Below are positions 1 through 39,690 of a stretch of 39,849 nucleotides of DNA, piece after piece; within the stretch, counting starts at the first letter, position 1; each line of letters starts with the position of its first letter. The notes below the pieces were generated by a model. It saw only the letters and a program-made list of their open reading frames with translations, made no database searches and was not told the DNA's origin. Source of the stretch: a virus; the IMG/VR virus record IMGVR_UViG_3300042923_000504, positions 1-39,849 of that record; one strand, written 5' to 3'. Made by a program: the position numbers and the translations under genes.

Positions 1-127
1 CTCATTCTTTGGTTCTTCTTTCGGCAACAGATCTGTGAGTGACTTCATAACTTGAACATGATTTTTTATCATTGTGTTATACACTTCTACAGCTGATGAC
101 TTCTTCACACCAAACTGATTAGCACCA
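1..127. repeat. Exact terminal overlap, copy 1 (circular-assembly joint)
   Basis: These 127 bases are identical to the last 127 bases of the window. They lie inside the small terminase gene, whose frame runs from base 327 down to base 1 and continues without a break at 39722. The plain reading is a circular assembly with an unclipped overlap. A length of 127 is also a common assembler k-mer, so a real packaged direct terminal repeat is not supported. Confidence 0.93.
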
Positions 128-327
128 TTCTGGTATTTTTCAGTCACGCCATTTTCATTTATCTCATCCTGCAGATCCTCAAGAGTAATGGCCATAAAAG
201 CTGCGTTTTTTATGAGTGAAACCACTGCTTTTTTCTTTTTGTCATCTATGTTTTTCAATAAACCGTTTAATCTGGCTATTTCCTGCTTAATTCGTTTTTG
301 TTTATCCAACTCGGAATTTTCACCCAT
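1..327 (-). CDS. terS: Terminase small subunit (N-terminal 109 codons; continues at 39722)
   Basis: Small terminase, the DNA-recognition part of the packaging motor. The ATG at 325-327 opens a frame (MGENSELDKQ...) that leaves the window at base 1 and continues from 39722 to a TGA at 39687-39689, giving 120 residues. It has a basic helical N-terminus (about residues 8-45). The C-terminal half, with NGANQFGVKKS then a helical NTMIKNHVQVMKSL segment and an acidic tail, looks like P27-type small terminases of Gram-positive phages. It lies directly upstream of the large subunit, with overlapping stop and start codons (ATGA). The assignment rests mainly on position and general composition. Confidence 0.8.
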   Translation of the reverse strand, partial: MGENSELDKQKRIKQEIARLNGLLKNIDDKKKKAVVSLIKNAAFMAITLEDLQDEINENGVTEKYQNGANQFGVKKSSAVEVYNTMIKNHVQVMKSLTDLLPKEEPKNE

Positions 328-479
328 AAAAATCACATCCTCTCCCATTTACTACACCCCTCATGTGAATACCCTATGTATTACGCGAAGGATGTCACAC
401 GGTCTACTACAGCCACGAAATCCACTTTTTGATAGGGGGGCTATGGCCTGTTTTATTCGACAAGCTTCGACAATTTTTG
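328..479. other. Candidate cos/packaging region between HNH and terS
   Basis: About 150 bp without a gene between the HNH nuclease gene and terS. It holds a run of six G (435-440) and short repeats of TTCGACAA(G) at 456-464 and 466-473, with a third copy at 486-494 just inside the HNH gene end. HNH-terS-terL order is typical of cohesive-end phages of the HK97 type, where the cut site lies close to these genes. The exact nick positions cannot be read from the sequence. Confidence 0.4.
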
Positions 480-773
480 TCACACTTCGACAAGATTTCC
501 ATATTCATCAAACCTTGTACCAACCATTGTCACTCCATACTTCTCATGATGTTCTTGGTTATGACAGTCCTGGCATAATAGTTCTAAGTTATGGTAGCTA
601 AGTGTAACCTCTGGATTGTTTATGTTATCAGGTGTTAAGTATTGCTTGTGATGTACAATCTTTCCTACCCCCTGACATCGTTCACATAGTCCATGACGAT
701 AGGTAAAGTATGATTGTCTACATTGCCTCCACTGTTTAGAATTGTAGAACTTAATAGCAAACTCTTTAGCCAT
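480..773 (-). CDS. HNH endonuclease, packaging-associated (97 aa)
   Basis: Small HNH nuclease of the type that assists terminase cleavage at cos in HK97-like phages. Visible elements are FYNSKQW near residue 9, a CERC knuckle near 30, the HNH first histidines in VHHK near 40, and the closing NLELLCQDCHNQEHH around 67-81. So both zinc-binding Cys pairs and the His/Asn catalytic framework are present. Its length is normal for the family. It starts 4 bases after the stop of the preceding 47-codon gene and is followed by the candidate cos region and terS. A homing role is less likely because it is not inserted into another gene. Confidence 0.85.
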   Translation of the reverse strand: MAKEFAIKFYNSKQWRQCRQSYFTYRHGLCERCQGVGKIVHHKQYLTPDNINNPEVTLSYHNLELLCQDCHNQEHHEKYGVTMVGTRFDEYGNLVEV

Positions 774-1488: not shown

Positions 1489-1525
1489 AAAAAGACGATA
1501 CTCTGCCCAGGAGTACCGCCTTTTT
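1489..1525 (-). terminator. Intrinsic terminator in late leader
   Basis: On the minus strand: AAAAAGGCGGTACTC, a 7-base loop, then GAGTATCGTC followed by TTTTT. The GC stem pairs fully if two G-U pairs are allowed, and the T run follows at once. It lies about 60-100 bp downstream of the promoter at 1595-1622, so a basal transcript would be about 100 nt. Confidence 0.8.
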
Positions 1526-1550
1526 AGCAACTATTCTACTGTGATCTAGT

Positions 1551-1572
1551 AACTAACCAATATTAGTTAGTT
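1551..1572. promoter_or_regulatory. 22-bp near-perfect palindrome in late leader
   Basis: AACTAAC...GTTAGTT arms around AATATT, with one mismatched pair that becomes G-U in leftward RNA. It lies between the promoter start point (about 1588) and the terminator. It could be an operator or an RNA hairpin recognised by an antitermination factor. Function is inferred from position only. Confidence 0.5.
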
Positions 1573-1594
1573 CGAATGATTTTCACTCGATAGT

Positions 1595-1622
1595 ATCATA
1601 TTAACACGGAATTCCATGTCAA
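1595..1622 (-). promoter_or_regulatory. Leftward sigma-A-type promoter, probable late promoter
   Basis: Minus strand -35 TTGACA (1617-1622) and -10 TATGAT (1595-1600), with a 16-bp spacer. It faces the packaging genes and lies directly after the early operon. Two AAAGTGCAA repeats exactly 11 bp apart abut the -35, which fits an activator binding one face of the helix. The ArpU-like regulator encoded at 2474-2902 is the obvious candidate activator. Confidence 0.75.
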
Positions 1623-1641
1623 AAGTGCAAATAAAGTGCAA
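1622..1641. repeat. Two phased AAAGTGCAA direct repeats at the late promoter
   Basis: AAAGTGCAA at 1622-1630 and again at 1633-1641, an 11-bp period, immediately upstream of the -35 box in leftward orientation. This is a typical geometry for an activator dimer. No protein can be assigned from sequence alone; the ArpU-like protein is a guess from neighbourhood. Confidence 0.6.
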
Positions 1642-2473: not shown

Positions 2474-2902
2474 TTATCTCCACCCAACTACTTCAGCAAT
2501 GGCATAGATAATTTCATCACGCATATTAAAAGCTGTTCTTCGGCTAACAGGTATTTCTCCAGCTATTCCATCCCATGTAAGCGTCTGTGGTTTGGTCCAG
2601 TACTTTAACCTAATTAACTTCTGATATTCCACAGGAAGACTGGTATACACTTTCTGAATGGCATTCGCCACTTCTTCTAATCGATTTAAACGTTTATGAG
2701 TAGCTAACCTCGTTGCGATCCGTTCAGTAGGACTGGAAGGTAAACCACTTCGACCTCCACCGATATTTTCATCATCATTGGACTTGGTAAACATGATATC
2801 TTTACGCAGCTCTTCAATTTCTTTCAATGTATCTTTGTAACTAAATAACTCAGATTCTATATGTTTGAAAGTTGCTTTTTTTAGCTTAGTAGCAATAGTC
2901 AT
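2474..2902 (-). CDS. ArpU/RinA-type late transcription regulator (142 aa)
   Basis: Members of the ArpU/RinA family activate late or packaging genes in Gram-positive phages. This protein has the family's size and layout: a helical N-terminus (residues 5-40), a Gly-rich linker with SSPTERIATRLATHKRLNRLEEVANAI, then a sigma-region-4-like C-terminal helix-turn-helix (LIRLKYWTKPQTLTWDGIA, then VSRRTAFNMRDEI). CAGGAG precedes the ATG by 7 bases. It lies at the end of the early operon about 850 bp before the promoter at 1595-1622, the place expected for a late activator. The DNA target is inferred. Confidence 0.78.
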   Translation of the reverse strand: MTIATKLKKATFKHIESELFSYKDTLKEIEELRKDIMFTKSNDDENIGGGRSGLPSSPTERIATRLATHKRLNRLEEVANAIQKVYTSLPVEYQKLIRLKYWTKPQTLTWDGIAGEIPVSRRTAFNMRDEIIYAIAEVVGWR

Positions 2903-25345: not shown

Positions 25346-25375
25346 AAATAAAAAGAGGACTGATAAACAGCCCTC
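25346..25375 (-). terminator. Intrinsic terminator before the holin gene
   Basis: Leftward GAGGGCTG, 5-base loop, CAGTCCTC, then TTTTTATTTTC. It lies between the tail-propeller gene and the lysis genes, so lysis-gene transcription needs read-through, antitermination or an own promoter. Confidence 0.8.
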
Positions 25376-25456
25376 ATTCTTACTAAATTCTTACTTAATT
25401 TATATTATTTTCTTACTCTTATTGTCTCACATACGAACGCCGTTAGTGTTACTAAA

Positions 25457-32846: not shown

Positions 32847-32865
32847 GTTTTTTCCTCCTATACAA

Positions 32866-32893
32866 ATAAAAAGCTAGGGAATTAACCCTAGCT
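32866..32893 (-). terminator. Intrinsic terminator after the major tail protein gene
   Basis: Leftward AGCTAGGG, 6-base loop, CCCTAGCT followed by TTTTATT. A perfect 8-bp stem. It would lower expression of chaperone and tape measure relative to the abundant major tail protein. Confidence 0.85.
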
Positions 32894-33295
32894 CTACACT
32901 GCTGTTACTGTTAATGTTGGCTTTCCAGATACCTTTAAAGTTGCTTCAAAGGAGATATTATCTTCCATTTCTGCTGAAGTACTGTATGCTGTTACAATAC
33001 CACTAAATTCCCATTTTGCACCTAGAGCGGTAGGGAATTCGATCGTATAAGTGGCAGCTACTCCACTTTCAAAATCATCTAATAACCCTTCGTGTGAAGT
33101 CGGATCAAAGAATCCGCTAATAGAGACTTCTCCACCGTCTTTTAGACCTTGCTGATAGGTACGGAACCCGTCAGTAGAATCCAACGTGGTTGTTTCAATA
33201 GTATCTGCTGATAAATCTAATCCACCAATACTAGTTAATTGTGCAACAGCAGTAACACCTTTTTTAAGCTTTGTACCCATTGCTGATTGAGCCAT
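32894..33295 (-). CDS. Major tail protein (133 aa)
   Basis: Tail-tube subunit. Small beta-rich protein (VAQLTSIGGLDLSADTIETTTLDS, then GEVSISGFFDPTSHEGLLDDF, TYTIEFPTALGAKWEFSGIVTAYS) with the G-L-d-L-s-a-d-t-i-e-t-T pattern common to phi13/TP901-type major tail proteins. It lies between the tail terminator gene and the chaperones, and is followed by a strong terminator, as expected for an abundantly made protein. Confidence 0.85.
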   Translation of the reverse strand: MAQSAMGTKLKKGVTAVAQLTSIGGLDLSADTIETTTLDSTDGFRTYQQGLKDGGEVSISGFFDPTSHEGLLDDFESGVAATYTIEFPTALGAKWEFSGIVTAYSTSAEMEDNISFEATLKVSGKPTLTVTAV

Positions 33296-34804: not shown

Positions 34805-34835
34805 ATAAAGGAAAGAGCCACTGAAAGACAGTGGC
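34805..34835 (-). terminator. Intrinsic terminator after capsid region
   Basis: Leftward GCCACTG, 5-base loop, CAGTGGC, then TCTTTCCTTT. It lies between the small 62-codon gene after the capsid gene and the connector gene, and would cap capsid-level expression. Confidence 0.72.
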
Positions 34836-34845
34836 CTTTAAACAC

Positions 34846-35034
34846 CTATTGCGTTTTATCTTTCCGTTTTACTTTATCTTTCTTTTCTATAACTACATTA
34901 GGTTCTTTTTTAAGAAACCCACTTTCTTGTAAAAAAGAAATTCGTTTTGAATCAGTTGATTCATACATATCACCTTCGGAATATCCTACCAATGATACTT
35001 TATCAATGAATGGATTAATTACTAAATGCTTCAT
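34846..35034 (-). CDS. Small protein after the capsid gene (62 aa)
   Basis: MKHLVINPFIDKVSLVGYSEGDMYESTDSKRISFLQESGFLKKE with a basic tail. Small proteins of this sort, with a F-x-D-k pattern and a hydrophobic surface, often sit between capsid and connector genes. They may be capsid decoration or structural accessories. It is transcribed at capsid level because a terminator follows. Function unknown. Confidence 0.55.
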   Translation of the reverse strand: MKHLVINPFIDKVSLVGYSEGDMYESTDSKRISFLQESGFLKKEPNVVIEKKDKVKRKDKTQ

Positions 35035-38004: not shown

Positions 38005-39690
38005 CTAAATCATGTTGAGATAATCATTTTTCTTTTCTTGAAGGACCACATAAGCATTTAAAAGTGCTGCTGTACCGTCTATCCTTCTTCGCTGGTTGTT
38101 CGTCTTGTTTGGTTGGATATTTAGGTTTTTATCCACATCAATAGCTGTATTCGATAAACACCATTTATCAATAGGGTTATTGTTATAGATAATTTTCTTT
38201 GCTTCTAAGTCAGCTCCAAGCAATTTCATAGGCATTGATAAGGTTTGCTTACCCTGAGAAATAGGAACCATAGCCTCCATGCCAAAATAACCTTGCATTT
38301 CTTCAACCCAATATTTTGCAGACCATCTATCATAGCCAATCCAAGGAATATAAATCCCATAATCATTTCGCATTTCTAAAAACCATTCAGTGACAAACTT
38401 TGCATGAACACTATTACCAGGAGTGGTTCTTAGCAAGCCCATATCATGCCACAGATTATAGGGTATCTTATCTTCTTTTGTACGCTGATCAAGTAAATCT
38501 TCAGGCAACCAATACATTTGCTTAACATAAATATTGGAGTCGTTTGGAACCATAAAAATAACCTTAGCTGCTGTTAAGTCTGTTGTACTTGATAAGTCAC
38601 AACCACCTATACCATAGCTAGGGTTAAGATTATTAATATCATAAGTAGTTTTATTGTTTAATTGCTCGAAGGTTAACCATGCTTCACTGGATGTTTCTCT
38701 TATATTAAAATCCTTGGTCAATAAATTCTTAACCAACAATGAATTTGATTTTGCTTTGTTTACCTTTGTTTCAAGCTGATCAATCTTTTTAATGGTACCT
38801 AATCCCGGATTAGCTTTCGGCCAGCTAGATGGGTCTGTCCATTCTTCCCTTTTGTCTAGTTCGTAGATGATGGGGAGGAAGCGGTCATCTTTATATCCAT
38901 CAGCATCATCCAAACCATTTAAAAGCATTTCAGCCTCTTCATACTTCATATCATAGACGGATTCACGAATGGTTCCAGCCGTGGTAATCATGAATATCAT
39001 AGGTTGTTCACGCGCTGATGTTCCGTCCACAATAACATCGTACAGGTTTTTATCTTTCCAGGCGTGAATTTCATCCATCATAGCTCCATGTACGTTTAAA
39101 CCGTCTAGTGTCTCACTGTCAGACCCTAAAGGCTTAAAGGAGCTATCATTCCATTCAGAAACCATCTCTGAAACCAATGGCTTGATTCTTTTTAGGAGCG
39201 CTGGAGACTTCTTCACCATTCGTTTTGATTCTAACCAAACCAATTTAGCCTGGTCTTTCTTCGTTGCTACAGCATAAACCTCACTACCCGGTTCGCCATC
39301 AGCTATTTGAAGATATAAACCAATACCAGAGGCTATAGTGGATTTCCCATTTTTACGAGCAACCACTAGAAGTATTTCTCTATGTTTTCTCGTACCATCA
39401 ATCTTGTGGATGAAACCAAAGGAAGCTGCAATAAAAGCCTTCTGCCAAACCTCTAAGACAATAGGTTTACCTCCCCATTTACCTTTAGAGTGCTTGCAGT
39501 AGTTCTCTATAAACTCAATTGCATGATTGGCTCGTTTGGGGTCATATTCCCACTCATTAGATTGGTTATGGACATCCTCCACAAGCTTTTTGTAAATCCG
39601 TCTAACCTTATTAGAAACAATTTCTTTTCCGCTTTGAATCATATCCCAATATTCAAGAATAGGATTGTAAGCTAAAGGATATTTAATCAT
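38005..39690 (-). CDS. terL: Terminase large subunit (561 aa)
   Basis: Packaging motor ATPase and nuclease. The ATPase domain has LEVWQKAFIAASFGF, Walker A VARKNGKST near residue 113, and Walker B GAMMDEIHAW near 203. The nuclease domain begins at IGGCDLSSTTDLTA (metal Asp near 365), with further acidic positions toward the C-terminus (GYDRWSAKYW, AIDVDKNLN). This is the Terminase_1/HK97-like class, compatible with cos packaging. The ATG overlaps the small-subunit stop (ATGA). Confidence 0.93.
   Translation of the reverse strand: MIKYPLAYNPILEYWDMIQSGKEIVSNKVRRIYKKLVEDVHNQSNEWEYDPKRANHAIEFIENYCKHSKGKWGGKPIVLEVWQKAFIAASFGFIHKIDGTRKHREILLVVARKNGKSTIASGIGLYLQIADGEPGSEVYAVATKKDQAKLVWLESKRMVKKSPALLKRIKPLVSEMVSEWNDSSFKPLGSDSETLDGLNVHGAMMDEIHAWKDKNLYDVIVDGTSAREQPMIFMITTAGTIRESVYDMKYEEAEMLLNGLDDADGYKDDRFLPIIYELDKREEWTDPSSWPKANPGLGTIKKIDQLETKVNKAKSNSLLVKNLLTKDFNIRETSSEAWLTFEQLNNKTTYDINNLNPSYGIGGCDLSSTTDLTAAKVIFMVPNDSNIYVKQMYWLPEDLLDQRTKEDKIPYNLWHDMGLLRTTPGNSVHAKFVTEWFLEMRNDYGIYIPWIGYDRWSAKYWVEEMQGYFGMEAMVPISQGKQTLSMPMKLLGADLEAKKIIYNNNPIDKWCLSNTAIDVDKNLNIQPNKTNNQRRRIDGTAALLNAYVVLQEKKNDYLNMI

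Follow-up and report, generated by a model that had tools for sequence, protein, structure and literature searches.

In many temperate phages of Gram-positive bacteria, RinA and its relatives are regarded as simple late-gene activators, and these phages include mobilisers of staphylococcal pathogenicity islands. The RinA-controlled late promoter has been described for Staphylococcus phi11 and its relatives (Ferrer 2011; Quiles-Puchalt 2013). For staphylococcal phages, the late regulatory region has already been reported to hold a conserved terminator (Ferrer 2011, as cited in PMC5754349); in our comparison, that of phi11 comes about 80 nt past the start, after the RinA promoter and ahead of terS. 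Processive antitermination is established for the late genes of lambdoid phages; for RinA-type phages we found no demonstration of it.

The DNA analysed here, IMG/VR virus record IMGVR_UViG_3300042923_000504 at its full length of 39,849 nt (the window), represents a temperate siphophage of Bacillus type, with the genome in circularly permuted form. Its late leader shares with phi11 and relatives a RinA-family gene just upstream, paired repeats, a TATTATGATA -10 region and late genes that follow a terminator, and differs from phi11 in the sequence of the repeats, in the leader hairpins and in its small genes, of which three separate rinA from the promoter and four separate the terminator from TerS (Table 1). 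The earlier note had placed the leader right before the packaging genes; it does lie upstream of the HNH, TerS and TerL genes, but four small ORFs, HNH among them, come before TerS. The small terminase-like gene is cut at the left end because of the circular permutation, and the annotated genes running leftward from the right end are those for the large terminase, portal, protease, capsid, tail, holin and endolysin, an order which, taken by itself, is compatible with the late promoter driving packaging, structural and lysis genes. The early and late operons share one direction.

Table 1. Features of the late control region and late operon in the window (numbers in brackets are positions relative to the predicted start).
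Feature	Position	Strand	Remarks
terS, small terminase-like protein	1-348	-	phrog_1066/5110; truncated at left end (base 1)
HNH endonuclease gene in late operon	480-773	-	
Intrinsic terminator	1489-1525	-	14-15 bp stem, about -17.5 kcal/mol; 3' end UUUUUCUAU
Leader hairpin 2, near-perfect palindrome AACTAACTAATATTGGTTAGTT	1551-1572	-	predicted fold; 9-bp hairpin as RNA
Leader hairpin 1, UCGAGUGAAAAUCAUUCGA	1572-1590	-	predicted fold
Predicted transcription start	1591	-	purine 49/49; pyrimidine before purine 47/49
-10 element TAATAT (family TANNAT)	1598-1603	-	T/A/T positions kept in 48-49/49
TTGACA	1617-1622	-	-35 of the earlier note
Proximal RinA repeat TTGCACTTT	1622-1630 (-39 to -31)	-	exact match; occupies -35 place
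Distal RinA repeat TTGCACTTT	1633-1641 (-50 to -42)	-	exact match
rinA, 142-aa late activator	2474-2902	-	phrog_36 2.5e-36; TIGR01636
Sense terminator in late operon, ahead of holin	25347-25384	-	
Sense terminator in late operon, past major tail protein	32865-32900	-	
Sense terminator in late operon, past capsid region	34812-34839	-	
Large terminase, first gene past the wrap	38005-39690	-	Pfam TerL

Some further features of the late operon deserve mention. A gene for a 62-aa Arc-like repressor (34846-35034, minus strand) sits between the capsid region and a terminator. The gap between HNH and TerS (about 349-480), which holds a GGGGGG run near 437-443, is a plausible candidate cos site since the HNH gene adjoins it. 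Directly past the leader terminator there is a 15-bp G-U-rich hairpin (1467-1429, minus strand) without a U tract.

The 142-aa regulator scores 102 bits against TIGR01636 (cut-off 31.9), which places it in the RinA family; this was its sole match at E<=0.01, and the ArpU model TIGR01637 was unmatched. The ArpU-like activator that the earlier note had imagined at the repeats is thus correct as to the RinA/ArpU superfamily, but the protein is a RinA and not an ArpU. Its architecture is a helical N-terminal region followed by a C-terminal domain resembling sigma region 4. The AlphaFold2 model is confident (pLDDT 83), and the best superposition of the C-terminal domain is on region 4 of SigA (target TM 0.75, rmsd 1.8). 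The domain is small, however, and Foldseek gave this match a weak E-value of 0.15. Relatives, encoded in both viral and bacterial-genome loci, are 37 to 81% identical in the alignment, and the named hosts of the closer ones are Bacillaceae. The Q family was absent from the listed Pfam matches of RinA or of 25 relatives, and we found no homologue of the Q family, of NusG paralogues or of other antiterminators in or near RinA.

For comparison we assembled 49 non-redundant RinA-type late leaders from Bacillaceae, Staphylococcus phi11, Streptococcus, Lactococcus phi31 and others, drawing on a weight matrix trained on eight leaders, a pattern scan and named phages. In most of the other loci the matrix gave one outstanding match downstream of rinA; the loci used for training or found by pattern are not independent evidence for the motif itself, but they are independent for the features downstream of it. 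A wider sample based on TerL relatives was tried and given up, as only 1/80 carried a RinA-box promoter, which we attribute to the swapping of modules.

This alignment changes the reading of the promoter. The combination TTGACA-N16-TATGAT (1622-1617, 1600-1595), previously taken for a strong sigma-70 promoter, does exist and, at 11/12, ranks first among the promoter-like sequences of the initial 5 kb, but TTGACA occurs in only 5/49 leaders, and alignment with the 48 relatives moves the -10 from TATGAT to the TAATAT element three bases upstream. Seven bases past that element stands an invariant purine, our predicted start. With normal spacing, a -35 would fall on the second repeat; for this reason, and given the rarity of TTGACA, the late promoter is best read, from the alignment, as activator-dependent and without a -35 of its own. 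The chance TTGACA in the window may confer some basal activity. A 4-of-6 match to a -10-like pause element was counted in the initial transcribed sequence of 25/49 leaders, a raw count in sequence that is AT-rich.

The two repeats that the earlier note had seen 11 bp apart are exact copies, and their plus-strand form AAAGTGCAA has no other exact copy in the window, where single-mismatch matches are no commoner than chance. The 11-bp spacing is kept in 44/49 leaders, while the sequence of the repeat varies among phages (TTGCAC, TGTCAC, TGCGAC, TGGCAC, TGAGAC). Phages with differing late promoters reportedly carry matching RinA variants. The RinA alignment columns that covary best with the repeat are 135, 131, 130 and 128, all of them in the recognition helix of the C-terminal helix-turn-helix (0/2000 permutations; the permutation takes no account of relatedness). 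At column 135, N or Y goes with TGCAC in 7/7 cases, an association that spans proteins only about 50% identical, and R goes with TGNNAC-type repeats. Since the residues of the recognition helix covary with the repeat, RinA very probably binds the repeats.

The terminator stood up to scrutiny as a full intrinsic one, although an automatic terminator scan, misled by a U run that base-pairs within the stem, missed it. From the predicted start to the end of the stem is 103 nt. Using a strict finder, we detected a terminator within 200 nt past the promoter in 36/49 non-redundant leaders, as compared with 0.8 expected from dinucleotide shuffles; the opposite strand gave 1. When the settings were relaxed a little in a second run, there was a terminator downstream (<=220 nt) in 37/48 leaders, with a median stem end of +99, and upstream (<=200 nt) in 1/48, a comparison limited by the noncoding space ahead of the promoter, which is often very short. 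About a quarter of the relatives have no clear terminator within 200 nt; the finder overlooks some stems, two of the leaders scored as terminator-less (L005 and L035) having stems evident by eye, and others (L014, L022 and L034) have a long structured leader in place of a nearby terminator. The layout of promoter and then terminator is found also in phi11, phi2958PVL, SpT99F3, StB20, Javan47, Javan531 and phi31, and it is the rule among RinA-type late leaders. By eye, three large-terminase relatives outside the RinA set (L136, L149 and L153) have short repeats 11 bp apart, a TANNAT and a terminator; the same plan in these and in Listeria phage A118 suggests a rule that holds across the superfamily.

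The leader of the window folds far better than its shuffles (z -5.0; z -5.5 for the first 45 nt). In related leaders a hairpin with the six-base loop CGGAAA and a stem of at least 5 pairs, usually 10 to 27 nt past the start, precedes the terminator in 13/49 leaders against 0.015 expected. With a fourteenth leader of shorter stem taken into the pair count, this hairpin shows 37 compensatory changes and 94% of cells paired, and 0/500 shuffles equalled it; outside the hairpin, the neighbouring sequence is unconserved. The window is an exception in its RinA clade, having in the same place two strong hairpins whose loop is not CGGAAA, and no CGGAAA hairpin elsewhere; it belongs to the RinA class, and its leader is a variant. 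The second of the two is the 22-bp near-perfect palindrome already seen by the earlier note. It is unique in the window, and a role as a DNA operator is unsupported, the sole copy being 1551-1572 with none in viral contigs, contrary to what a repeated repressor operator would look like. In leaders that fall outside the CGGAAA class, 5' hairpins were in weak excess overall (mean z -0.9, 8/35 below p 0.05), and no such excess is claimed. Rfam gave nothing at gathering score for the window leader, only chance-level matches on the opposite strand, and the leader had no match among phage records at the nucleotide level.

Other structures were seen farther along in the late leaders. Five contain tRNA-like structures (L014 +224, L022 +583, L023 +209, L025 +235, L034 +289, offsets from the repeat start), as does L070 by eye; these have a 7-bp acceptor stem, a leucine-type D arm, a T arm and a long body in which a normal anticodon arm is missing, and neither ARAGORN nor Rfam called them. 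Past the terminator of L005, L006, L007, L017, L024 and L029 there is a recurrent hairpin with the 3' side GGGTGGGG(GC), often with GTGGGAAAA ahead, apparently the late leader's second structured RNA element. Farther down the late leaders of Listeria phages, mcrA RNA (RF03010) occurs at 2396-2447 in L069 and at 2506-2556 in L070.

Based on these comparisons, we think it probable, though far from assured, that this is a RinA-activated late operon with a default stop at the promoter-proximal terminator, which the late polymerase passes by antitermination. The first part of this proposal, activation of the late operon by RinA, is well supported; default termination followed by read-through is what we infer. 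The sigma-region-4-like domain of RinA would substitute for the absent -35 contact, and host RNA polymerase would initiate at about 1591 from the TAATAT element. The terminator would then halt the polymerase by default, leaving a short leader RNA of about 100 nt and silent late genes. Once the lytic cycle is on, the polymerase would be enabled to pass the leader terminator and the three further sense terminators downstream, and read-through would yield transcription of the packaging, head, tail and lysis genes. RinA might stay with the polymerase in the manner of Q or AlpA, the leader hairpins might act in the manner of put, LoaP or canT, or both. RinA is said to be the sole phage protein required for activation of the phi11 late region; if the reporter behind that statement sat past the terminator, RinA alone would be enough for passage. 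The read-through that the earlier note had proposed on the lambda model survives in outline, with a terminator placement conserved in the family, but without a Q homologue and with repeats placed differently from the Q site.

The terminator might instead be no more than an insulator that blocks read-through from the early operon, with a strong RinA-driven promoter overriding a leaky terminator without any special antitermination. Such a device would be useful between an early and a late operon that share one direction, and the phiNM1 paper, citing Ferrer 2011, calls the conserved terminator of the staphylococcal late region a possible late-promoter insulator (PMC5754349). The terminator of the window could indeed be leaky in vivo. 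An insulator, however, would best be placed ahead of the promoter, and the terminators lie after it and hardly ever before it, which makes insulation alone hard to sustain; the stems, moreover, are strong, and there are three more sense terminators inside the operon. We consider this explanation rather unlikely. Antitermination and the production of a short RNA are, on the other hand, not at odds, as the Listeria sRNA rliG illustrates. Both rliG and rli62 have been reported as sRNAs of prophage A118, with rliG up-regulated in macrophages (PMC3556495), and they map to the corresponding leaders, the A118 leader matching rliG at 274 bits; the rliG model starts inside the activator gene and hence not at the predicted start. 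A full-length rliG alignment in Listeria B025, in which the apparent start fell on the predicted one, proved to be forced and was dropped as support.

These sRNAs, together with the well-structured leader of the window, would also fit the view that the RNA itself is the purpose, a stable trans-acting regulator of about 100 nt, with the late genes transcribed mainly by other means. We regard this as improbable, since the sequence between hairpin and terminator is unconserved among related leaders (the longest shared word averages 5.9 nt), the window has no Rfam match, and a promoter scan found no other strong promoter between the terminator and TerS. Structured leaders might equally recall classical attenuation, in which a leader peptide or an alternative RNA fold governs the terminator. 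Between 1591 and the terminator, however, no start codon is accompanied by a ribosome-binding site, the predicted structures have hairpins and terminator folding independently with no competing antiterminator, and no riboswitch was matched; attenuation is accordingly very improbable.

A terminator kept just past the promoter, and hardly ever ahead of it, suggests that initiation is only half of the late switch, and processive antitermination in RinA-type phages is now directly testable. The covariation of helix and repeat offers a first code for matching RinA proteins to late promoters, and in the CGGAAA hairpin there is a defined candidate for an RNA signal. In the open literature we found no description of how widely the terminator occurs in the superfamily, of its bias in placement, of the helix-repeat residue covariation or of the CGGAAA hairpin.

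Among the described systems beyond phi11, the LlgA late region of Listeria A118 resembles the window in its pair of 9-bp repeats with 11-bp spacing, which in A118 stand where the activator gene ends, and in its structured leader and terminator. LlgA, however, belongs to the ArpU family (TIGR01637), unlike the RinA of the window, and BLASTP gave no alignment between the two. What the locus has in common with the Q systems of lambda-type phages and of phage 21 (PR'-tR') is a late promoter with a terminator close behind it and a phage protein that binds, or in the window very probably binds, the promoter. The Q site lies between -35 and -10 (PMC6606751), whereas the repeats of the window lie at -50 to -31; RinA has no Q homology, and for the window a sigma-dependent pause and antitermination are putative. 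AlpA of Pseudomonas is a promoter-bound factor with an intrinsic terminator 54 nt downstream and more than one target operon (PMC7969949), and so resembles the window in combining such a factor with a terminator tens of nt on, but its site, too, is between -35 and -10, unlike the window repeats.

Two Gram-positive systems resemble the RNA side of the proposal. In the dfn leader of Bacillus velezensis, controlled by the NusG paralogue LoaP, a small hairpin stands ahead of an intrinsic terminator (PMC12691694); its loop is UNCG, while that of the RinA relatives is CGGAAA and the window has neither, a UNCG-loop hairpin being absent from its leader fold. In Tn916, a mobile element, the terminator is overcome on activation by the cis RNA canT (PMC11658703); the canT sequence tested was 452 nt, whereas the window has short hairpins and a predicted DNA-binding activator. 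It is possible, and we suggest it tentatively, that RinA, ArpU and Ltr, as proteins resembling sigma region 4, are the Gram-positive counterpart of Q; they would open a late promoter that has no -35 and afterwards either remain with a hairpin-modified polymerase that ignores terminators or pass control to it, the CGGAAA hairpin being the nascent-RNA half of the system and the hairpins of the window its variant.
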